This document shows, piece after piece, positions 47,178 to 60,985 of a stretch of 64,000 bases of DNA. The notes below the pieces were generated by a model, which was not told the origin of the DNA, ran no database searches, and saw only the letters and a list, made by a program, of their open reading frames with translations. The DNA comes from Thiotrichaceae bacterium (lineage in GTDB: Bacteria; Pseudomonadota; Gammaproteobacteria; Beggiatoales; Beggiatoaceae). The stretch covers positions 1 to 64,000 of the forward strand of contig JAQTYU010000002.1 of the NCBI GenBank assembly GCA_028688145.1. Reading direction: 5' to 3'. Position 1 is the first letter of the stretch; each line of letters starts with the position of its first letter. A program made the position numbers and the translations under genes.

Positions 47178-48413
47178 TTAATACCCACCCGCCTGAATAC
47201 AATTATCCAAATCACCCGCCGCGATAATTTGCCCCGAGCTGTTTTGAAACACCGTTGCCCACCATGCCGCCTCAGGTGCGGGCAACGGTCCTCGATAAAA
47301 CTCTTTGCCTGTCAAATCCAAGCCCACATAATACAAGCTGATATGTGCAGTGCTACGGTCTGCAAAGCTCACCGCATTGCCCACTTGGAAAACGACCCCA
47401 ATGCTGGTCTCATTGGTGTTCGGGATTTTCAGGAAAGCTGCAGTGGGTGCACCCGAATAGGCGATAGGCACACCTTGATTGTCGGTAAATTTCTTGCCCA
47501 CCGTGTCAAACACCATAATCCCTGAGGGCAACCAAGTTTTACCCGCATCTTGCGAAACTGTGCCGCGAATACTCCATTGCCACACCGCCGTTTTTTTGTA
47601 AAAAGGCAACCAGTCATATTTAGGCAAGGGGGTCAAATCGACCTGCTCATAAAACACCACAAAAGTATCACCCGCACCAATAATTGCAGGCATTCCAAAG
47701 CGTTGATGCAAAGTCAGCGGCGTAACTTCAGTTGGGAAAGACCAGTTAAAACCCAAATCGCTGGATTTTTGTATCAAAATCACTTGTTCCCCATTGGCGA
47801 AAGGCTCGTTGCGATTTGCCGAAACTTCCGAGGCAAATACTACCGCCACAGTTTCATTGCCATCGGGATTTAAGCCGTTGTGCGAAACCCACAACATGGG
47901 TTCATAAACCCCGACATCGACTTGTGTCTCTAAGTTATCACTTTCACCACTGGTTTTATCCGATAGATTTTCTAAGAAAATCTGCGAGCGAAATTTCCAA
48001 GTTTTACCTTGGTCTTCACTTTGCAACAAGTCAATCCACGAAGTTGAACCTTGCCAAGCACGCACTGCCATCAACACCGTTTCGGGGCGTGAACCTTTTG
48101 CCCGCAACACCGCCATTTGTGCATTGCTATAATTCACAGGCGGCGCAAACGCAGGAATACTCAACGCCTGCCAATTTTGCAAATTTTTATCGCCTTGATA
48201 GACGCGAATCGCCTGCCCTATGCGTCCTTCTGCATCGGTATTGCTGAAGTCGGTGGACATTAACACCGATCCATTTGACAGCTCCACAAAACGTGGATAA
48301 TGCCCTGTAATTGCCTCGTTCTGAGCGGTGAATAGTGAGCACGCAAGCGCGGGCACGCCGCTTAACAGATAGCAAAGTCCTATGACACATGCCTGTTTAA
48401 ATCGAAGGTTCAT
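47178..48413 (-). CDS. Exported sialidase-fold (BNR/Asp-box) protein
   Basis: A signal peptide (ACVIGLCYLLSGVPALA) precedes a six-bladed propeller-type protein of 411 residues. At least three Asp-box-like motifs are visible: SEDQGKTW, SSDLGFNW and SQDAGKTW. Such folds occur in exo-sialidases, exo-arabinases and many non-enzymatic surface proteins. I cannot see the full sialidase Arg triad, so activity is uncertain. The ATG at 48413 is chosen over 48425 because GGAAA lies about eight bases before it. It ends just inside IS debris (stop at 47178, IS end at 47163). Confidence 0.75.
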   Translation of the reverse strand: MNLRFKQACVIGLCYLLSGVPALACSLFTAQNEAITGHYPRFVELSNGSVLMSTDFSNTDAEGRIGQAIRVYQGDKNLQNWQALSIPAFAPPVNYSNAQMAVLRAKGSRPETVLMAVRAWQGSTSWIDLLQSEDQGKTWKFRSQIFLENLSDKTSGESDNLETQVDVGVYEPMLWVSHNGLNPDGNETVAVVFASEVSANRNEPFANGEQVILIQKSSDLGFNWSFPTEVTPLTLHQRFGMPAIIGAGDTFVVFYEQVDLTPLPKYDWLPFYKKTAVWQWSIRGTVSQDAGKTWLPSGIMVFDTVGKKFTDNQGVPIAYSGAPTAAFLKIPNTNETSIGVVFQVGNAVSFADRSTAHISLYYVGLDLTGKEFYRGPLPAPEAAWWATVFQNSSGQIIAAGDLDNCIQAGGY

Positions 48414-48546
48414 GATATTTTCCATTTTATAAATGATTACTGAATAAACATAAATATACTTATCTCAACTCATAATTTCGAGGGGGTTTATAGTTTTATT
48501 TGCGTAATTCCTTACAAATTAAAATATTAGAAACATAATAAAATAA

Positions 48547-50076: not shown

Positions 50077-50557
50077 ATTAATTTCCTAATGATTAGTAAT
50101 CTTAATCACACTGCGCAAAAAATAATGATTGTTTTGCATATTAAAGGGATATTTTGTAGAGGGATTTTACGCTTTACCGATAAAATCCATGCGATAATAC
50201 GAGATGTTAGAAGGTCTTTATCTGTGGGTCTTTAGAGAAGGATTATGAATAATTTGCTAAGCTTAAAACTAGCAATAAAGCTTTACAAGACTTCAGGATA
50301 TTGATTATAAACCGAGTGTAGTTTGTTGCATTCAGTTTTAAAGCTAACCATGATGCTGTTTATTTCCCTCCAGATAGATGTACAGCAGGTAGTGTAGGTT
50401 TAGATTTTTTCACAACAGTGTCTACAATATTCATCAGATGATGAATATTAATAGACCCTAAATAGACTCGGTGTGTTCATTCAAGCTTAGAGCAGTCTGT
50501 TGTTGAATGACAGTAACCGCTTCAAGCCTTGCGATAATCGCATTACAGGTGATTCTT
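50077..50557. other. Intergenic region before the modular secreted-protein cluster
   Basis: These 481 bases without a convincing gene separate dacB from the divergent cluster. They are AT-rich with local inverted words (for example ATTCATCAGATGATGAAT at about 50430-50447). They should hold the promoter of the first cluster gene. I could not recognise a riboswitch. Confidence 0.4.
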
Positions 50558-51808
50558 ATGAATAAAAAGATTGTATCCCTTCTTTTTGCAACCAGCCTTG
50601 CGCTTAGCCCTTGGGCAAGTCAAGCAGAGGTGACAACACCTCCTGTGACGCAAACCACTGCTCACACATGGTGTGCGAGTGATGCCCATAACGACAGTTA
50701 TTCCTTTAATACCAGTCAAGGTCATGCTGTGTGGTTACCCGGTGTAGTCACCAGTTTAGTGTTTGATAACAAGGGTGGCAAATTCGTTGAAAATGCTGAT
50801 GGTACGGCGGATTTCACAGGCACTTTAGTCGTTCCTGGTGATGCGAATAAAAGCTTTACCTTGAATGTAAAATTTACGGGTCTTCAAACCACCGCGCCTG
50901 AACCCCCTAAAAAGGAATTGGATGCTAAAGCCTATAACGAAGGCAAAGCAGACATGACCAAGTGGTATTTCTACACAGGTTTTACAGGCACATTGACCGG
51001 GGTAGGTGATTTCGCAGGTTCTAAATTGAGCTTAAGCCGTATGGGTCCTGCTTTCCAAATTGGGGCGGGCGCAAACGGTAAAAATATCCAGTTTGGGGCT
51101 TCAGGTTGGTTCAATTTCAACATTGATGCACAACCCACCAACACCAACTTTAAGTTCTACAAAATTGGCGAACATGGCGACTTTAACATCGACTTAAATC
51201 CTTGCGTCGTTGAAAAAACCACGATGTGCGTGTATGCAGCTCCCGGCAGCATTTATAACACCAGTGGCGGTCATGCATTGTGGTTGCCCAGTATGCAAAC
51301 CAATACCAGTGCCAGCGTTGACATGATTTTCTTGGATTCTGCTCCCGGAATTTTAGTTGAAGACGGCAACACTGGCACCGCAACTTTGAAAGGCACTTTG
51401 GTCAGAGCTGATAATCCTAATTACAGTTTCTACTTAGATGTCTTCTTGTCGGGCTTTAAAACGGCTCTGTTACCTGGTGAAAAGAACAAGCAAGAATTAA
51501 GCTCTAAAGCTTATAGCACGGGCTTGGTCAAACCTTCGACTTGGTATTATTACACCGACTTTACAGGCACGTTGACAGGCTTGGGTTACTACGAAGGTCT
51601 GAAAGCTTCCTTATCTCGTAGAGGACCTTCTCCTCAGTTTGGGATTGGGGCTAATGGGAAAAATCTTAACTTTGGCGGTTCTTGGTGGTTGAATTACACG
51701 ATTATCAGCCAGTCTACCAGCAAGTTGCATTACCTTTACGGGGATAATGGTGACATCAATTTAGACATCAGAATTTGCCCTCCTTCCATTTTAAGCAAGT
51801 TAAAATAA
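50558..51808 (+). CDS. Exported two-module (B-B) protein of unknown function
   Basis: The product is 416 residues: signal peptide (SLLFATSLALSPWASQAE), then two copies of a module of about 180 residues (called B), roughly 35-225 and 228-412. Hallmarks of B are a Cys at the start, SQGHAVWLPG, DGTADFTGTLV, KELDAKAYNEGK, WYFYTGFTGTLTG, RMGPAFQIGAGANGKN, and a closing FNIDLNPC. Paired Cys at both ends of each module suggest a disulfide. The ATG is 50558, set by AGGTGATT. I do not recognise the module. Paralogous copies occur in the next genes, so this is the first member of a five-gene cluster. Confidence 0.8.
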   Translation: MNKKIVSLLFATSLALSPWASQAEVTTPPVTQTTAHTWCASDAHNDSYSFNTSQGHAVWLPGVVTSLVFDNKGGKFVENADGTADFTGTLVVPGDANKSFTLNVKFTGLQTTAPEPPKKELDAKAYNEGKADMTKWYFYTGFTGTLTGVGDFAGSKLSLSRMGPAFQIGAGANGKNIQFGASGWFNFNIDAQPTNTNFKFYKIGEHGDFNIDLNPCVVEKTTMCVYAAPGSIYNTSGGHALWLPSMQTNTSASVDMIFLDSAPGILVEDGNTGTATLKGTLVRADNPNYSFYLDVFLSGFKTALLPGEKNKQELSSKAYSTGLVKPSTWYYYTDFTGTLTGLGYYEGLKASLSRRGPSPQFGIGANGKNLNFGGSWWLNYTIISQSTSKLHYLYGDNGDINLDIRICPPSILSKLK

Positions 51809-51868
51809 TTGGTTAGTCACACCTAATTTGCATGGGATTTGTGATAACTAAACACGCGCAGTAAGATG

Positions 51869-51904
51869 AACTTGCACACGAACTAGTGTGCAAGTTTTGT
51901 TTTG
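51869..51904 (+). terminator. Terminator or attenuator between cluster genes 1 and 2
   Basis: AACTTGCACAC and GTGTGCAAGTT form a perfect 11-base stem followed by TTGTTTTG. It ends only about 30 bases before the start of the next gene, so it may attenuate read-through. Confidence 0.7.
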
Positions 51905-51932
51905 AATGGGTAACCTACTAAGGAATTTCATA

Positions 51933-53897
51933 TTGAATACTTCAAAACTTTCACTAGTTTCTAGCCTGCTATTGCTCTCTTTAGGGCAAAATACTTGGGC
52001 TGCACCTAGCAATGATGCCCTTGCAAGTGCTATTGATTTTACAGGAAAAATTCCGTATACCACCCAGCAAAATACGCTAGGCGCGACCACGGAAGCGGGC
52101 GAATTAATGTCCACATGCTCCAATGACAACAAGGCGACGGTTTGGTATAAATTTATCCCCAGCGTCGATCAACAATTGTCTTTAGATGCTTTCGGCTCGG
52201 ACTATGACACCAACCTTTCAGTATGGACGGGGACTAGCCATCCTTTAACTGAAGTCGCTTGTAATGATGACTCCAGCCGCGTCAAACAATCTCAATTGAA
52301 TTGGCAGTTTAAAGCAGGCATTACTTATTACATCGCTATTGGGGGTTATACTGGGGAAACAGGCAACTTAATTTTTAATGTCACCCCCGTTGCCGCTCTG
52401 AGCAATGATAAATTCAGCGATGCGATTAACATCACTAAATTCCCCTTCACCACAATTCAAACGACGGTTAATGCTACGGTCGATGCGAATGAAGTCACTC
52501 CTGATTGCGCTATTTCAGGCAGTGGTAGCACGGTTTGGTATAAATATACCCCGAGCATCAATCAAACCGTGGTTTTCGATACCTTTGATTCCGATTACAA
52601 CACTGTGTTATCGCTGTGGACAGGTTCAACCCAGCCTTTAACTCAACTGGCTTGTAATGACAACATGGGGGCGCAACAATCCCAAGTGATTGCCAATTTA
52701 ACCGCAGGCACGACGTATTTTGTCAATGTGGGTGGTGTATTAAGCAATGGCGTGGTGGCTGAATCAGGCAATTTAGTGCTGCATTTATCCGCTCCCCCAG
52801 TAAATGACAATATTCTTGCTGCGAAAGTTATCAACAGCTTACCTTTTGATGACAGCATGAATGCCGCTGGCGCAAGCAATGAAACCGCTGAAGTTTCCCC
52901 CAGTTGCGGCGTGAGCAGTAACAGCGTTTGGTATAAATTCACACCAAGCACCACACAAAACGTGAGCTTTGCTAGCCTTAAATCCAATTATGACACGGTG
53001 TTGTCCGTGTGGACGGGAAGCACGCATCCCTTGACCGAAGTGTTGTGCAATGATGATGCAATCACCAGCGATGACCAAGAAAAAACCTCGCAAGTTGCAC
53101 TAACTTTGACCGCAGGCACGCCCTATTTCATTAATGTGTCAGGGAATTATGGGGCTTCAGGCAGCTTAATTCTCCATGCAGAAACTGTGGTTAGCGATCT
53201 GAAAATTACCCAACAACCCAGCGCAACTGTGTTAAAAATTGGACAAACGGCAACCTTAGTGGTGTCGATTACCAGCACCAGTGCTTCCAAAAATATCACC
53301 TACCAATGGTTTGAAGGCGGCGCAGGTAATACCACTCGCGCAGTGGGCGACAGCAGCAATGTATACACCACGCCAGAATTGACGGGAAACACCAGTTACT
53401 GGGTACGCATCACCTCTGCTAAAGGCAGCGTAGACAGTGATGTGGCAACGGTCACAGTGGATGGCGCAACCAATGGTGTTGGCATCGATTTACAAGGTAA
53501 ATCCTTATCCACAACGGCTAATTTTGGTTTGAAAGTTGCATCAAATCAGCGTACAGGGAATAACATTAAAGTCGCACAAACCGATAATATCAGTTTGGGT
53601 GCGACGATTAATGTAGACCCAGCACATATTGGTAAAACCGCCGATATTATTATGGTTGGGATTTATAATGGCACTGCCTTTATGCGCAAGGGCGCAACGT
53701 GGACAGTGTGGGATGGCAGCATTAGCGGTCTGAGCAGTGCACAATCAAACGTGACTTTAACGACGGTCGTGCCTGTCTCAATTTTTGATGGCAGTTTTAA
53801 TGGTTTGCCCGGCAACTTTAAGGTTTATGTAGGCTACCGTGTGGACAACAGCATCATGTTCAACGGCAATGAACCGATTAGTTTCCTCGTGCAATAA
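51933..53897 (+). CDS. Exported PPC-repeat/Ig/C-module protein
   Basis: A signal peptide (SLVSSLLLLSLGQNTWAAP) is followed by three PPC-like (bacterial pre-peptidase C-terminal) domains at about 25-155, 156-285 and 286-415. Each has VWYKFTPS, FGSDYDTNLSVWTG and CNDDS-type calcium-like motifs. An Ig-like domain follows (about 420-515, YQWFEGGAG, SYWVRIT), then a C-terminal module called C (about 520-654, ADIIMVGIYNGTAFMR, YVGYRVDN). The likely start is TTG at 51933, with AAGGAA nine bases upstream; its paralog at 59021 uses the same layout. It has no protease domain. It is probably a surface or matrix protein; binding partners are unknown. Confidence 0.82.
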   Translation: MNTSKLSLVSSLLLLSLGQNTWAAPSNDALASAIDFTGKIPYTTQQNTLGATTEAGELMSTCSNDNKATVWYKFIPSVDQQLSLDAFGSDYDTNLSVWTGTSHPLTEVACNDDSSRVKQSQLNWQFKAGITYYIAIGGYTGETGNLIFNVTPVAALSNDKFSDAINITKFPFTTIQTTVNATVDANEVTPDCAISGSGSTVWYKYTPSINQTVVFDTFDSDYNTVLSLWTGSTQPLTQLACNDNMGAQQSQVIANLTAGTTYFVNVGGVLSNGVVAESGNLVLHLSAPPVNDNILAAKVINSLPFDDSMNAAGASNETAEVSPSCGVSSNSVWYKFTPSTTQNVSFASLKSNYDTVLSVWTGSTHPLTEVLCNDDAITSDDQEKTSQVALTLTAGTPYFINVSGNYGASGSLILHAETVVSDLKITQQPSATVLKIGQTATLVVSITSTSASKNITYQWFEGGAGNTTRAVGDSSNVYTTPELTGNTSYWVRITSAKGSVDSDVATVTVDGATNGVGIDLQGKSLSTTANFGLKVASNQRTGNNIKVAQTDNISLGATINVDPAHIGKTADIIMVGIYNGTAFMRKGATWTVWDGSISGLSSAQSNVTLTTVVPVSIFDGSFNGLPGNFKVYVGYRVDNSIMFNGNEPISFLVQ

Positions 53898-54232
53898 GCA
53901 TTAAACTCGCGGTGTTGCCAGATTTGGTAACACCGCATCCCTTCTGAAATCCCCTCCTTTATAAATCCCTCCATATAGATAACCTTTTGTAATTAATGTA
54001 TTTTTATTACAAGATTGTATTATATACTTAAGTCAATACAGCCTTATATAAAGCATTCAAACTTCACACGACGAAAGTTTGAACATAATTAAATGCCCAG
54101 AACTGCATCTTCCCCGTCATTAGAAACATGGGGAGGCGCACTAATGTGCTACACCGATTATTTAAGCAAAATTGCGTGAATAATCAAAAAATTTCCCAAG
54201 CAATGTAATTACCACGGTAGAAGGTGATTTAT
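53898..54232. other. Intergenic region before the stalk-protein gene
   Basis: It holds a hairpin GCGGTGTTGCCA/TGGTAACACCGC (53910-53937, probably the end of the previous transcript), an AT-rich promoter-like stretch (53995-54050) and a small hairpin CCCCGTCATTAGAAACATGGGG (54113-54134). No gene was found. Confidence 0.45.
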
Positions 54233-57010
54233 ATGAAGAACAAAGTGCTATATACAGCCATCAGTGCTGCCCTCATGAGCCCTCTTTCCGCTCATGCGGT
54301 TAATATCTTGATTCCAAATGACGCAAAACAATCCACGTATGCGGTCAATTTAGTTTCTCACGTCGGCAAAACTTGGACTTATAGCGTAAGCCAAGTTCAA
54401 GGACGTACCCTAAGCCACTGGGTTTTAGGGATTAACAACTGTCTGGATAAGGTTACCAGTTCAAAACCTGAATATGATGAACTTGGAAAAGACCCAAGCA
54501 CCGCCGCAAATTTTGTAGGTATTAAGTGGAATACCGCAGGTGGCACGTTCTCTTTCACGCTAGATAAAGAGTACGCAGAAACCACGCTGCAAGCTTTCGT
54601 AAAAACCGCAACTGTTTACAATACTGGGAATATTACGGGTCCTGACTGTTCTAAACCTGTAAGCTCCACCGCTGATGCAGCAGCTAAAGCCGCAGCCGAT
54701 AAGGCAGCCGCTGATGCAGCAGCCAAAGCCGCAGCCGATAAGGCAGCCGCTGATGCAGCAGCCAAAGCCGCAGCCGATAAGGCAGCCGCTGATGCAGCAG
54801 CCAAAGCTGCAGCTGATAAGGTAGCAGCCGACGCAGCAGCTAAAGCCGCAGCTGATAAGGCAGCAGCCGACGCAGCTAAAGCAGCCGCTGACAAAGCCGC
54901 AGCTGATAAAGAAGCTGCCGACAAGAAAGCCGCAGCTGACAAAGAAGCCGCTGATAAAGCAGCCGCTGCCAAATCAGAAGCTGAAAAAGCCGCTGCTGAA
55001 AAAGAAGCGTCTGACAAGAAGGCAACCGCTGAAAAAGAAGCCGCTGATAAGAAAGCTGCGATCGAAAAAGCCGCTGCTGAAAAAGCACTTGCCGACAAGG
55101 TTGCTGCTGAAAAAGACAAGGCAGATAAGGAAGCCGAAAACAAGAAAGCTTCTGCAAAGTCTGAAGCTGAAAAAGAAGCCGCTGAAAAAGAAGCTTCTGA
55201 CAAGAAAGCTGCTTCTGAAAAAGAAGCTGCGGATAAAAATGCAGCAAACAACGAGTCTTCAGACAAGAAGGCTAAAGCTGAAAAAGAAGCTGCTGACAAA
55301 AAAGCGGAAGCTGACAAAGAAGCTTCCGATAAGAAAGCCGCTACCAATTCAGATGCTGACAAAGAGGCTGCTGACAAAGAAGCCGCTGCTAAGAAAGCTG
55401 TCGTAGAGAAAGAAGCCGCTGACAAGAAAGCTGAAGCTGATAAGGAAGCCGCTGACAAGAGAGCCACGGCTGAAAAAGAATCCGCTGATAAGAAAGCCGC
55501 TGCTGAAAAAGAAGCTGCTAGCAAGCAAACACCTGAAAAAGCTGCAATAGATAATGATGCTGCTGATAAGAAGGCAAATGCTGAGAAAGAAGCTGCTAAT
55601 AAGAAAGCTGCTGCTGATAAAGATTGTGCTAACAAGAAAGCCGACATCGAAAAAGAAGCCGCTGACAAGAAAGCCAATCTGAAGACCGATGCTGAGAAAG
55701 AAGCTGTCGATAAAGAAGCAGAAGACAAGAAAACTGCGGCTGACAAAGACTGCGCCAGCAAAAAAGGCGACTTAGACAAGGAAGCTTCTGACAAGAAGGA
55801 TGCTGCTGATAAAGAAGCCTCCGACAAGAAAGATGCCACTGACAAAGCTAAATCTGACAAAGAAACCGCTGATAAAGCCCAAGCCGACAAGGCAAAGTCT
55901 GATAAAGACGCTGCTGATAAAGCCAAAGCTGACAAGGAAAAGGCTGACAAAGAAGCTGCTGACAAAGCTGACAAGGAAAAGGCTACCAAAGATGCTGTTG
56001 GTAAAACTTCCAATACGCTGTGTGCAAGCTCTGCCAACATGGACAGCTATGCTTTCAGCAACAGCCAAGGACATTCTGCTTGGATTCCTGGGATTGCAAC
56101 GGACTTAGTGTTTGCGGATGATACCCCTGGTCATTTCACTGAAAACACTGATGGCACTGCAAAGTTTACGGGTAATTTAGCGCGCAGAGGCGATGCTAAA
56201 CAAGGTTTGATCGTCGATGTGACTTTCACGGGTGCTCAAGCGACTGCGCCTGGCGAACCTAAGAAAGAACTGAATGCCAAAGCCTACAACGAAGGCAAGG
56301 CTGACATGAGCAAGTGGTACTTCTACACGGGCTTTGAAGGCACGCTGACAGGAACGGGCAACTACGAAGGCGGCAAGATTCATATCGTGCGTATGGGTCC
56401 TGCATTCCAAATCGGGAACGGCGCAAACGGTAAGAACATCAACTTTGGTGCATCTGGCTGGTTCAGCTATGACATCGTGTCACAACCTAGCAATCGCAAG
56501 TATGTGTTCTACAAGACCAGCGAACATGCTGACTTTAACGTTGACTTAAGCCCTTGTTCTGAAAAAGGCACGGCAACCAGTCCTGCCAGCAGTGTAGACT
56601 CTGAAGGTAAGAGTAAGCACAGTAATGCGAGCTTTGGCTTACGTGTCACCACGCCTAGAGCTTCTGGCAACGACCTCGAAGTCGAACAAGATGACGACAT
56701 CAGCGTAGATGCTTCAATTATTGCGGATGCTGAACATGTGGGTAAAGCCGCTGACATCATCATGGTCGGTATTCATGGCAACATGGCATTTATGCGCGAT
56801 GGCGACGACTGGAAAGAATGGGACGGAAAGCTTGAACATCTGACCGTTGCTAAGAAAGCTGTCACTTTACCCAGCAGCCCCTTACCTGCCAATGTTCTCA
56901 AAGGCAAGATGACGGGTATGTCTGGTGCTTGTCAGGTTCGTGTGGGTTATCGTGTTGATGGCAAGCTCATCTATAACGATGAAGCACTCAAGTTCACAGT
57001 TAAGAAATAA
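54233..57010 (+). CDS. Exported protein with a long Ala/Lys/Asp/Glu helical stalk between modules A and B-C
   Basis: The 925-residue product has a signal peptide (about 1-22) and module A (about 23-140: LIPNDAKQSTYAV, HWVLGINNCL, GIKWNTAGGTFSFTLDKEY). A charged helical stalk of about 440 residues (about 145-590) is made of AADKAAADAAAKAA-like and EKEAADKKA-like units, similar in composition to the TolA middle domain. Module B (about 595-780) and module C (about 790-925) follow. Two cysteines lie within the stalk (KDCANKK, KDCASKK). The ATG is fixed by AGGTGATT. Modules A and B recur in the next gene and C in the PPC proteins. It could span the periplasm or project from the cell; the function is not known. 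Confidence 0.82.
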   Translation: MKNKVLYTAISAALMSPLSAHAVNILIPNDAKQSTYAVNLVSHVGKTWTYSVSQVQGRTLSHWVLGINNCLDKVTSSKPEYDELGKDPSTAANFVGIKWNTAGGTFSFTLDKEYAETTLQAFVKTATVYNTGNITGPDCSKPVSSTADAAAKAAADKAAADAAAKAAADKAAADAAAKAAADKAAADAAAKAAADKVAADAAAKAAADKAAADAAKAAADKAAADKEAADKKAAADKEAADKAAAAKSEAEKAAAEKEASDKKATAEKEAADKKAAIEKAAAEKALADKVAAEKDKADKEAENKKASAKSEAEKEAAEKEASDKKAASEKEAADKNAANNESSDKKAKAEKEAADKKAEADKEASDKKAATNSDADKEAADKEAAAKKAVVEKEAADKKAEADKEAADKRATAEKESADKKAAAEKEAASKQTPEKAAIDNDAADKKANAEKEAANKKAAADKDCANKKADIEKEAADKKANLKTDAEKEAVDKEAEDKKTAADKDCASKKGDLDKEASDKKDAADKEASDKKDATDKAKSDKETADKAQADKAKSDKDAADKAKADKEKADKEAADKADKEKATKDAVGKTSNTLCASSANMDSYAFSNSQGHSAWIPGIATDLVFADDTPGHFTENTDGTAKFTGNLARRGDAKQGLIVDVTFTGAQATAPGEPKKELNAKAYNEGKADMSKWYFYTGFEGTLTGTGNYEGGKIHIVRMGPAFQIGNGANGKNINFGASGWFSYDIVSQPSNRKYVFYKTSEHADFNVDLSPCSEKGTATSPASSVDSEGKSKHSNASFGLRVTTPRASGNDLEVEQDDDISVDASIIADAEHVGKAADIIMVGIHGNMAFMRDGDDWKEWDGKLEHLTVAKKAVTLPSSPLPANVLKGKMTGMSGACQVRVGYRVDGKLIYNDEALKFTVKK
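54671..54865 (+). repeat. Five tandem 39-bp coding repeats in the stalk
   Basis: Five units of 39 bases start GCTGATGCAGCAGC and encode the 13-residue unit ADAAAKAAADKAA. The first three are nearly identical, and later units drift into the irregular KEAADKKA pattern. The identity suggests recent expansion. Confidence 0.85.
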
Positions 57011-57031
57011 CTGTTGAGTGTATAAATTAGT

Positions 57032-57075
57032 CCCTTTCGTCATATTTTTTGCAAAGTATGATGGAGGGGACTCCT
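57032..57075 (+). terminator. Hairpin after the stalk-protein gene
   Basis: AGTCCCTTTCGTCATA pairs with TATGATGGAGGGGACT with a few mismatches, 22 bases after the stop. The T run sits in the loop rather than after the stem, so termination is less sure. Confidence 0.45.
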
Positions 57076-57192
57076 AAATGTGCTAAATTTAAGACGAGTC
57101 CTATTTTTAAATTTGATTCGCTATACCCCTAAAAATAATAATAAATTAATCTCGGTAAAAAATTAATTCAAGCAAGCTAGAAGGTGATTTTC

Positions 57193-58866
57193 ATGAAAAA
57201 TACATTACTATATTCGGCGATGGTTGCCGTTCTTATGACTCCCGTAGCGCACGCCGTCGTTACACCGCCCACATCCGCAACCATTTTAATTCCAAACGAC
57301 GCAAAACAATCTACGTATGCTGTGAGTTTGGTTTCTCATGTTGGTAAAACTTGGACGTACAGCGTTAGCCAAGTTCAAGGTCGTACTTTGAGCCACTGGG
57401 TTTTAGGCATTAACAACTGCTTAAGCAATGTTGTCAGCTCCAGCCCCAAGGCTGATCAAGTTGGCACAGACCCCAGCACCGATGCAAAGTTTGTCGGTAT
57501 TAAATGGAATACCGCAGGTGGCACGTTCTCCTTCACTTTAGATAAAGAATATGCAGAAACCACGCTGCAAGCTTTTGTGAAAACTGCCACGGTGTATAAC
57601 ACAGGTAGTATTGTCGGCCCTGATTGTTCTAGTCCTGTCGTAACAACCCCTACGACTCCGACTACACCCACAACGCCAACGACGACTCCAACGACTCCCA
57701 CAATGCCTGAGGTCACTGGTTCAACGGGACATATTTTCACCTCGCAAACCTTGTGCGCAAGCCAAGCCAGCACCGACAGCTATGCGTTTAGCAATAGCCA
57801 AGGACACGCTGCCTGGATTCCAGGTATTGCCACGGATTTAGTGTTCTCTAAAGAGGCTCCCGGTAAATTTGTTGAAAATGCCGACGGCACCGCAACGTTC
57901 ACAGGCACTTTAGTCCGCATCAGCGATCCTAAGCAAAGCTTCACCTTGAATGTCACTTTCACAGGCGCACAAGTCACGGCTCCTGGTGAAATCAAGAAGG
58001 AATTGGATGCCAAAGCCTATAACGAAGGCAAGGCAGACATCGCCTCTTGGTATTTCTACACGGGCTTCCAAGGTACTTTGACAGGAACGGGCAGCTACGC
58101 AGGCAGCCAAATCAAAGTGACCCGCGTCGGTCCTGCTTTCCAAGTGGGCACGGGCGCAAATGGCAAAAACGTGCATTTTGGCGCATCAGGCTGGTTCACG
58201 TTTGACATCGTTTCTCAACCCACCAACACCGCCTACAAGTTCTACAAAGGTGGCGAACATGGTGATTTCAACATTGACTTGAATCCTTGTGCAGTCCAAA
58301 GCACCACCACGACTTTATGTGCTTATCGTGCTTATACTGACAAGACTTACGGTCAATACAGTGGCGGTCACTCTGTTTGGATGCCTGACATTGCAACTGA
58401 CTTGATTTTCTTAGACTCCGCTCCCGGTGTTTTGGTAGAAGATTCTGCTAAAGGCAATGCTAAGTTGACGGGCACTTTAGTTCGCGCCAGCAATGCAAAG
58501 AACGGTTTCGTGTTGGATGCCAATTTATCAGGCTTACAAACCACCATGCCTTCTGGCAGCCCCAAGAAAGAGTTGGTTGCTAAAGCTTACTCTGAAAAAG
58601 TCGTCAAACCTGAAACTTGGTATTTCTACACAGGCTTTACAGGCACGTTGACGGGCTTCGGTGATTATGCCGGTGCGAAATTAAACTTCGTGCGCATGGG
58701 ACCTGCCTTACAATTGGGCAATGGCGCAAACGGCAAGAACCTCAACTTCGGTGGTTCTAGCTGGTTCAACTACACCGTGATTTCTCAACCCACGAAAAAA
58801 TCTGTTGTCTTAAAGGGCGACAGAGGCGATTTCAACTTAGATATTAAGACCTGTCCCACTAAGTAA
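57193..58866 (+). CDS. Exported A-B-B module protein of unknown function
   Basis: The 557-residue product has a signal peptide (LLYSAMVAVLMTPVAHA), module A (about 30-150), a Thr/Pro linker (TPTTPTTPTTTPTTPT, about 155-175), and two B modules (about 185-375 and 377-555). Module A is nearly identical to that of the stalk protein, and its two B modules parallel those of the first cluster gene. The start at 57193 follows AGAAGGTGATTTTC, a copy of the leader at 54217-54232. Cys pairs border each B module. No known enzyme motif is visible. Confidence 0.82.
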   Translation: MKNTLLYSAMVAVLMTPVAHAVVTPPTSATILIPNDAKQSTYAVSLVSHVGKTWTYSVSQVQGRTLSHWVLGINNCLSNVVSSSPKADQVGTDPSTDAKFVGIKWNTAGGTFSFTLDKEYAETTLQAFVKTATVYNTGSIVGPDCSSPVVTTPTTPTTPTTPTTTPTTPTMPEVTGSTGHIFTSQTLCASQASTDSYAFSNSQGHAAWIPGIATDLVFSKEAPGKFVENADGTATFTGTLVRISDPKQSFTLNVTFTGAQVTAPGEIKKELDAKAYNEGKADIASWYFYTGFQGTLTGTGSYAGSQIKVTRVGPAFQVGTGANGKNVHFGASGWFTFDIVSQPTNTAYKFYKGGEHGDFNIDLNPCAVQSTTTTLCAYRAYTDKTYGQYSGGHSVWMPDIATDLIFLDSAPGVLVEDSAKGNAKLTGTLVRASNAKNGFVLDANLSGLQTTMPSGSPKKELVAKAYSEKVVKPETWYFYTGFTGTLTGFGDYAGAKLNFVRMGPALQLGNGANGKNLNFGGSSWFNYTVISQPTKKSVVLKGDRGDFNLDIKTCPTK

Positions 58867-58898
58867 GCCTTAATCCCTCAAGTTATCTGTTTAACACG

Positions 58899-58932
58899 CC
58901 CCCAGTCGAAAAATCCTATTTTTCACTGGGGG
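58899..58932 (+). terminator. Hairpin between cluster genes 4 and 5
   Basis: CCCCCAGT plus GAAAAAT pairs with ATTTTTC plus ACTGGGGG around a CCT loop with one bulged base. It sits between the A-B-B gene and the second PPC gene, parallel to the hairpin at 51869. Confidence 0.65.
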
Positions 58933-59020
58933 ATAATTTGTGGACTTGCACATCTCAAATTTATTCTTTAAGGTGTTCATACTTCATACGTGTTGCAACC
59001 TGCCAGAAAGGAATTCCCGA

Positions 59021-60985
59021 TTGAACATTCACCCACGCACCCTACTCAGCAGTAGTTTATTATTTGTCCTGAGTCAAAGCACTTGGGCTGCTGCACCTGT
59101 CAACGATAGCTTAGTTGCTGCTATCGATTTTTCAGGGAAAATTCCGTATACCACGCAACAAAGCACCGTCAGCGCAACCACCGAAGCGGGCGAGTTGATG
59201 TCGAAGTGCTCCAGCAATAACACCGCCAGCGTGTGGTATAAATTCACCCCCAGTGCCGATCAAAATGTGATGTTGGACACGATGGGCTCTGATTATGACA
59301 CCACCTTGTCAATTTGGACGGGCACAGCTCATCCATTGAATGAACTGGCTTGTAATGATGATTCACAAGGTAAACAATCACAACTTGCTTATGCGTTCAA
59401 AGCAGGTACTAGCTATTATGTTGCTGTCACAGGTTACACGGGTGAAACAGGTAAATTAATCCTGAACGCTAAACCGATTACGGCATTAACGAATGATAAT
59501 TTGGTGAATGCGATTGCTGTCCCCTCTGCAAACTACAGCAATATTCAAGTGACCACGGGCGCAAGCATTGAACCCACTGAAATGGTTGCCGATTGCGCGC
59601 TCACCACCTTGGGCAATAGCGTCTGGTATAAATATACCCCCGCCACCAATCAAACCGCCGTCTTTAGTACCTTTGGTTCAGATTACAATACCTTATTATC
59701 TGTCTGGACGGGAACGCAACATCCGCTGACCCAAGTCGCTTGCAATGACGACAGCAATGGTATGCAATCTCAAATTGTGACCCCTTTAACAGCGGGCACG
59801 AGTTATTTTATTAATGTGGCAGGCGTTGCCTCTTCAGGCGGCAGTGCAGAAGCAGGCAATCTGATTTTCAAAGTCAGCACCCCGCCTGTCAATGATGCTT
59901 TAGCCAATGCGACCACGGTGAATGGCTTAACTTACATCGACACTATCAGCACCGCAGGCGCGAGCAATGACACGGGCGAACTGTCGCCAAGCTGCGCTGT
60001 GGGTTCTAACAGTGTTTGGTATAAATACACCGCCACCACCAGCCAAAACGTGAGCTTCGCCACGCTGAAATCCGATTATGACACCGTGATTTCTGTGTGG
60101 ACTGGCGCGGCGCATCCGCTGAAAGAAATCGCCTGTAATGATGATGCCATCACCAGCGATGACCAAGAAAAAGCCTCACAAGTCGCAGTTCCTGTCACCG
60201 CAGGCACAACGTATTATATTGGAATCACTGGGAATTATGGCGGCGCAGGGAAATTAGCTTTCCGTGCAGAAGCTGTGGTCAACAGCATCAAAATTACCCA
60301 ACAACCCACGGCAGCCACGGTAAATTATAACCAACCTGCCACTTTGGCAGTCAGCATCAGCAGCACCGATGGTAAAGCAGTTGCTTTCCAATGGTATGAA
60401 GGCAATGCAGGCGACATCAGCATTCCTGTGGGCGCAAATAGCAATTATTTCACCTCACCTGCTTTAACCCGCAATACCCGTTATTGGGTACGCATTACTA
60501 ATGCCAGCGGCAGCGTAGACAGCGAAGCGGTTTTTGTCAACGTGAAAGCGCCTAATAATGCGAAAGGCGTTGATTTAAATGGGAATACCGTCAGCACCGC
60601 TGCAAGCTTTGGTTTAGAAGTCACCACGCCTAAAGCGTCTGGCAACAATGTGAAGGCTGATCAAGCAGACAATATCAGTGTGGATGCCACCATCACCGCA
60701 GATGCAGCGCATGTGGGCAAAACCGCAGATATTCTCATGGTCGGCATTTATAACAATATCGCGTTTATGCGTAATGGCGATAATTGGACCGCTTGGGATG
60801 GCAGCATTGCCAGCATCGCCGTGGCAAAGAAAGCCGTGGCATTAACCAGCAGTGCCTTACCTGTCAATATTTTCAAAGGCAGTTTTAACGGTTTACCCGG
60901 TAACTTCCAAGTGTATGTAGGTTATCGTGTTGATAATCAAGTTATCTTTAATGGCGGTGAACCGATTAGTTTCCTCATTCAATAA
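59021..60985 (+). CDS. Exported PPC-repeat/Ig/C-module protein, second paralog
   Basis: This is 654 residues with the same layout as the product of 51933-53897: signal peptide (LLSSSLLFVLSQSTWAA), three PPC-like domains (VWYKFTPSADQ, GSDYDTTLSIWTG, CNDD motifs), an Ig-like domain (FQWYEGNAG, RYWVRIT) and the C module (ADILMVGIYNNIAFMR). The frame is open upstream to 58940, but the TTG at 59021, with AAAGGAA nine bases before it, matches the paralog and gives the same length. Sequence identity to the paralog is high throughout, which indicates a tandem duplication. Confidence 0.82.
   Translation: MNIHPRTLLSSSLLFVLSQSTWAAAPVNDSLVAAIDFSGKIPYTTQQSTVSATTEAGELMSKCSSNNTASVWYKFTPSADQNVMLDTMGSDYDTTLSIWTGTAHPLNELACNDDSQGKQSQLAYAFKAGTSYYVAVTGYTGETGKLILNAKPITALTNDNLVNAIAVPSANYSNIQVTTGASIEPTEMVADCALTTLGNSVWYKYTPATNQTAVFSTFGSDYNTLLSVWTGTQHPLTQVACNDDSNGMQSQIVTPLTAGTSYFINVAGVASSGGSAEAGNLIFKVSTPPVNDALANATTVNGLTYIDTISTAGASNDTGELSPSCAVGSNSVWYKYTATTSQNVSFATLKSDYDTVISVWTGAAHPLKEIACNDDAITSDDQEKASQVAVPVTAGTTYYIGITGNYGGAGKLAFRAEAVVNSIKITQQPTAATVNYNQPATLAVSISSTDGKAVAFQWYEGNAGDISIPVGANSNYFTSPALTRNTRYWVRITNASGSVDSEAVFVNVKAPNNAKGVDLNGNTVSTAASFGLEVTTPKASGNNVKADQADNISVDATITADAAHVGKTADILMVGIYNNIAFMRNGDNWTAWDGSIASIAVAKKAVALTSSALPVNIFKGSFNGLPGNFQVYVGYRVDNQVIFNGGEPISFLIQ

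Follow-up and report, generated by a model that had tools for sequence, protein, structure and literature searches.

Described surface systems and the five-gene locus

Domain-shuffled surface proteins are already known. In the type IX secretion system of Bacteroidota, many exported proteins that are otherwise unrelated end in a short immunoglobulin (Ig)-like beta domain, the C-terminal domain (CTD). Other described systems include proteins anchored through a PEP-CTERM or VPLPA-CTERM motif, modular adhesins with ester-bond repeats and multi-domain beta stalks, surface proteins with SdrD_B and DUF11 repeats, and pilin-type operons, in which the genes of major and minor subunits are separated by an attenuating hairpin. 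Here, these systems are compared with five adjoining genes of a Thiotrichaceae bacterium (family Beggiatoaceae; assembly GCA_028688145.1; 3.63 Mb in 31 contigs), a filamentous sulfur bacterium. The genes lie on the + strand of the first 64,000 nucleotides (nt) of contig JAQTYU010000002.1, the stretch referred to below as the window. Large filamentous sulfur bacteria are gliding, mat-building organisms with a mucous sheath, and a limited search of the open-access literature found no description of the protein parts of their surface. The new features of the locus are undescribed modules (A, B, and C), a family-wide pairing of two genes, and the use of C as a C-terminal module.

The five open reading frames (ORFs) of the ORF list (50507-51808, 51906-53897, 54224-57010, 57184-58866, and 58940-60985) encode proteins with the module orders B-B, PPCx3-Ig-C, A-stalk-B-C, A-B-B, and PPCx3-Ig-C. 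Both the ORFs and the module comparison bore out this order, which had been read from the sequence in the original prediction. Sec-type signal peptides are legible at the N-termini of all five proteins, as had been claimed; a signal-peptide heuristic discriminated poorly (113 of 310 background ORFs passed, and gene 3 was missed) and was not used as evidence. The statement that no recognised enzyme domain is present also held, since none was found in the five proteins by Pfam and NCBIfam searches. All five genes of the predicted cluster are thus present, but what is conserved as a unit is two genes, one for a variable exported protein followed by one for the conserved PPC3-Ig-C protein. The earlier reading overlooked this pairing and did not notice that C also closes many other exported proteins.

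The conserved pair, its duplication, and its fusion

The PPC3-Ig-C proteins form an orthologous family of ~680 amino acids (aa). Beggiatoaceae comprise 25 genera in GTDB (PMC11172852), and the family sample included 42 genomes from 25 genera, with 271 other genomes of the class taken for comparison. Full-length PPC3-Ig-C was detected in 16 of the 42 family genomes, representing nine genera, and in none of the 271 others. Gene surroundings were annotated with profiles of the five modules. An exported same-strand gene with A, B, or a propeller lies directly upstream of 22 of the 26 PPCn-C genes and, when PPC3-Ig-C genes are considered, of 19 out of 21; the gaps range from -52 to 532 nt. Both window copies fit the pair, each PPC3-Ig-C gene being directly preceded by an exported same-strand partner. 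The exceptions are two loci with a divergent upstream gene (L085 and L161) and two PPC-rich variants (L164 and L165). The number of PPC-like repeats in the relatives' holder protein varies, reaching 11 in L164:6857-11809 and 7 in L165:6038-9385, both of which end in C. At L153:2591-5374, the partner upstream of PPC3-Ig-C is split into two ORFs, reflecting either a broken gene or an assembly error.

A beta-propeller-like domain ('YGVHDEGLNDSQF...DIEG' in the alignment) is nearly universal in the partners found elsewhere, where it stands alone or together with A, B, PA14, SdrD_B, or DUF11. Some of the relatives' partner genes and some B-bearing proteins thereby resemble the SdrD_B/DUF11 surface proteins in carrying SdrD_B and DUF11 repeats, whereas the window proteins carry none. 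In a genome of another genus (G022), a PA14-B-propeller protein and an A-B-propeller protein are each encoded directly upstream of PPC3-Ig-C. A and B are therefore associated with PPC3-Ig-C outside the window as well, and the possibility that such modules never occur together elsewhere, raised in the original prediction as grounds for rejecting it, was not borne out. The paired partners of the host genome have no propeller. The sole partner-type propeller found in that genome belongs to an 842-aa secreted protein (L175:5562-8090, contig C31) without a PPC3-Ig-C neighbour.

Within the window, gene 1 (50558..51808; the ORF is open from 50507, and the ATG at 50558 gives MNKKIVSLLFATSLALSPWASQA) encodes a signal peptide and two B modules, copy 1a at 50666..51220 and copy 1b at 51221..51787. 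Gene 2 (51933..53897; ORF open from 51906, with TTG 51933 as an alternative start) encodes a signal peptide, three PPC-like (PF23759-type) repeats (52008..53186), an Ig domain (53190..53465), and module C (53511..53894). Gene 4 (57193..58866) encodes a signal peptide, module A (57280..57645), a Thr/Pro linker, and two B modules, 4a at 57748..58305 and 4b at 58312..58863. Gene 5 (59021..60985; ORF open from 58940, with TTG 59021 as the likely start) repeats the layout of gene 2, with PPC-like repeats at 59099..60274, Ig at 60278..60550, and C at 60596..60982.

In the phylogenetic trees, genes 2 and 5 grouped with support of 100/100, the second B modules of genes 1 and 4 with 99/97, and the first B modules of the same genes with 92/97, the pattern expected if a two-gene block was duplicated to give genes 1-2 and 4-5. 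Gene 3 (54233..57010) is a single chain of signal peptide, module A (54302..54667), a long charged stalk of 449 aa (54668..56014), module B (56015..56566), and module C (56624..57007). At the DNA level, its A shares 79% identity with the A of gene 4, and its C is as near to the C of gene 5 as that of gene 2 is (72%), so that the gene has a gene-4-like 5' end and a gene-5-like C module. The window thus holds two copies of the pair plus gene 3, which looks like a fusion of the partner modules A and B to the C of the other protein. The in-place duplication and recombination put forward originally are upheld by the tree groupings and by the composite gene 3. Natural fusion of neighbouring genes is a classical, indirect sign that both products act together.

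The explanation favoured here, to which about an even chance is assigned, is a paired surface unit in which a conserved PPC3-Ig-C protein holds a variable display protein and C serves as the end for attachment or sorting. The locus would then represent a lineage-specific expansion of a two-protein cell-surface unit of Beggiatoaceae. The upstream gene would supply the exported variable display protein (B-B or A-B-B here, and elsewhere a propeller-like domain to which A, B, PA14, or SdrD_B may be added), and the downstream gene the conserved exported partner with three PPC-like sandwiches, Ig, and C. The two products probably come together extracellularly, where the conserved one would hold the variable one; C most likely docks proteins to a shared component of the outer surface or sheath, or tags them for export to it. 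Gene 3, in which partner modules and C are joined across the stalk, may do both jobs in one chain. The originally suggested cell-surface or matrix structure of interacting parts would fit the conserved pairing and the natural fusion.

A rather unlikely alternative is that these proteins are independent adhesins or matrix fillers with interchangeable sticky beta modules, in which the neighbourhood of the genes results from tandem duplication alone and C is merely another Ig-like domain. It agrees with the adhesin-type beta folds suggested for all modules, with the tandem recurrence of C and B, and with the presence of A and B in many proteins without a PPC3-Ig-C neighbour. However, tandem duplication does not explain why the pair order is kept in nine genera, although the partners share little beyond the propeller.

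Stable hairpins were found between many partners, both in the window and in pairs from several genera beyond it (L081, L082, L090, L091, L154, L157, and L160). The gene 1/gene 2 gap contains a terminator-like hairpin of 12 pairs with a T-rich tail (51868..51897), and the gene 4/gene 5 gap a hairpin of 13 pairs without a T run (58899..58932). Terminator-like hairpins with a T-rich tail occurred in 10 of 18 pairs versus 13 of 73 control gaps (p = 0.002, for rows from related genomes that are not independent). The T-tailed hairpins hint that the two products of a pair may be made in unequal dosage. In this respect the pairs recall pilin-type operons, from which they differ in that no pilin, usher, or chaperone family was found in the five proteins.

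Module C and its possible role at the outer surface

Searches of the genome sequence revealed 17 copies of C in 16 ORFs of the host genome, 13 of these ORFs being located outside the cluster. In all 16, a C ends no more than 14 residues from the C-terminus; a second, internal copy is present in one ORF, and the short ORFs L115 and L119 are possible fragments. In genes 2, 3, and 5, C runs to the stop codon. The regions preceding C are mutually unrelated and include fn3 and Calx-beta with a beta-helix, two BNR/sortilin propellers, PMP-type repeats, FG-GAP, PKD, and others without a match. The 13 further ORFs ending in C (L110-L121, on contigs C24, C31, C6, C3, C19, C5, and C10) constitute a candidate surface proteome. 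C was present in 34 of the 57 genomes searched, all within Beggiatoaceae, and in none of 21 outside the family; a 35-member profile gave no match in 397 other genomes sampled across the phylum. Among these 35 copies, no Pfam or NCBIfam family matched more than one copy, and the single matches are chance-level names.

The model of C built from the three window copies is Ig-like and confident, with a predicted local distance difference test score (pLDDT) of 87.9. Its best structural matches were the ester-bond repeats of adhesins (Z 9.1, root-mean-square deviation 3.0, 109 residues). The resemblance to these modular adhesins, which also have multi-domain beta stalks, is at the fold level only, with 6-13% identity among the matches listed. 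A likeness to adhesin repeat domains would suit independent adhesins too, but the terminal position of C in every one of the own-genome ORFs is not expected of random shuffling.

The pattern shown by C looks like that of known C-terminal sorting domains, above all the type IX CTDs, with which it shares the short Ig-like beta domain, the extreme C-terminal position, and the many otherwise unrelated exported carriers. Moreover, Pfam names the neighbouring domains after such cargo (GBD_T9SS_assoc, and Ig_7 as 'CHU_C associated'). Unlike the type IX CTDs, C has no match to a curated CTD profile in Pfam or NCBIfam, measures ~130 aa, and is sometimes found in tandem. SprA (TIGR04189), the outer-membrane pore of type IX secretion, was absent from three Beggiatoaceae genomes (G000, G019, and G002), whereas a control Bacteroidota genome (G313) scored 2070 bits; type IX secretion was rejected for these proteins on this basis. 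Proteins anchored by PEP-CTERM or VPLPA-CTERM are comparable in that one VPLPA-CTERM protein, from a Roseobacter (L008), has a mature part consisting of B. By contrast, none of the five window proteins matched a CTERM model, their chains ending in C or B, and B is followed by another B, by C, or by a stop codon. The body of the Roseobacter protein (L008:7297-8001) is formed by B alone, and the module thus occurs in combination with an exosortase-type anchor too.

Two further readings give C a role in sorting. In the first, which is unlikely, C would be the cargo tag of an undescribed sorting or anchoring system of the outer surface confined to Beggiatoaceae, and PPC3-Ig-C a dedicated adaptor that displays the variable partner encoded upstream. 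In the second, regarded as quite improbable, C would be a dedicated C-terminal export or sorting signal for an undescribed outer-membrane machine of Beggiatoaceae, similar to the type IX CTD, and PPC3-Ig-C would be mainly cargo. The strict C-terminal position on unrelated cargo, the confinement of C to a single bacterial family among the genomes sampled, and the predicted Ig-like fold argue for such a signal. Against it stand the lack of SprA, the lack of a candidate machine, and the existence of internal and tandem copies. Given that SprA is absent and C is tandem in relatives, a plain adhesive or docking role of C is equally possible.

The paired surface unit, in which C would hold the proteins at the outer surface, also has several observations against it. 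At the threshold applied, 26 of the 42 family genomes lacked PPC3-Ig-C, including the near-complete G010 and G028, and this patchy occurrence means that it is not a universal sheath component. C is internal or tandem in relatives (L117 and L162; three copies in one G002 frame), as in an ordinary adhesive repeat, and its structural matches (Z 7-9) are at a level that may stem from a common fold arrangement. A and B are not confined to pairs, as mentioned above. The modules, their conserved pairing, the duplication and fusion, and the family-restricted terminal position of C are documented by the sequences, while placement on the surface, contact between the partners, and a part for C in docking or sorting are inferred.

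Should C prove to be a sorting or docking signal, the surface proteins of any Beggiatoaceae genome could be listed with a single profile, which would also guide efforts to find the machine reading it. If it is not, the locus is still a clear case of domain shuffling with the natural fusion of two paired proteins. Testable candidates are provided by an orthologous two-gene unit in nine genera, three domain families that neither Pfam nor NCBIfam contains, and a C-terminal module that may mark an entire surface proteome.

Modules A and B and other features of the locus

The claim that A, B, and C are strongly alike between genes was substantiated. The two copies of A are 85% identical in aa (104/122), the five copies of B (~180 aa) 43-70% pairwise, and the three window copies of C (~128 aa) 44-64%; the six PPC-like repeats share 41-69% and the two Ig domains 53%. 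Such within-module identities are far beyond chance for the sequences compared. A, B, and C matched no Pfam or NCBIfam model and, by sequence, no solved structure; no described secretion or S-layer system was recovered with them, which was the other outcome named as counting against the original prediction.

That prediction regarded PPC and Ig as the only familiar families. The Ig domain is indeed PF19081 (Ig_7), passing the cut-off in gene 2 and missing it by 0.1 bit in gene 5. The repeats called PPC, however, matched PF23759 (GBD_T9SS_assoc) above the cut-off; among 12 orthologues, Pfam gave PF23759 in nine and PF04151 (PPC) in two, with E up to 0.01, so 'PPC-like' is the safer name. No peptidase domain was found by Pfam in the five proteins, which separates them from the peptidase-attached class of PPC (PF04151) domains, and no Pfam match to an SLH domain was obtained in them, as would be seen in an SLH-anchored S-layer.

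Whole-genome searches placed A and B nowhere else in the host genome. A was detected in 14 of the 57 genomes searched, all within Beggiatoaceae, and in none of the 397 other genomes of the phylum. B is a general exported domain, also found in a Myxococcota-type metagenome-assembled genome (MAG), an Acidobacteria MAG, a Bacteroidota MAG, an uncultured proteobacterium, and the Roseobacter protein, and weakly in an Aureispira plasmid. Plasmid spread was dismissed, as A and PPC3-Ig-C had no match and B only the weak Aureispira one. Viral origin was likewise dismissed: A, B, and C had no relatives in viral contigs, and PHROGs returned just weak head-protein matches to the PPC-like part.

The model of B (pLDDT 89.1) is beta-barrel-like, and its nearest structural matches are designed ligand-binding barrels and streptavidin (Z 6-9; best Foldseek E 0.046); no strong relative of B is present among the solved structures listed. 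The most conserved stretch of B is GANGKN..FG.S.W. These data, together with the PA14 domains and propellers of partners elsewhere, agree with ligand-binding or sensing complexes, in which the B barrel or the propeller would bind a small molecule or glycan that PPC3-Ig-C keeps near the cell. This explanation is highly improbable, because the structural similarity is weak and says nothing on function, and the five genes have beside them no receptor, transporter, or enzyme belonging to the paired unit.

Ala, Lys, Asp, and Glu account for nearly all residues of the gene 3 stalk, which repeats with periods of ~5 and ~11 residues and probably forms a single helix or coiled coil. Matches to HC2/histone-like proteins stem from this Lys/Ala stalk and are below the cut-offs, so gene 3 was not taken for a DNA-binding protein. 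Long reverse-strand ORFs over the stalk (54616-56040, 474 aa, and others) are an artefact of composition. The match of A to malaria P230 (E 0.015, one short stretch) was treated as chance; the match of B to RecA (E 0.55) and those to Protein L B1 and sortase GN were below the cut-offs. Next to the cluster, the window encodes an exported protein with weak BNR-repeat similarity (47178-48425, - strand) and without a terminal C, unlike two BNR proteins elsewhere in the host genome (L112), which do end in module C.

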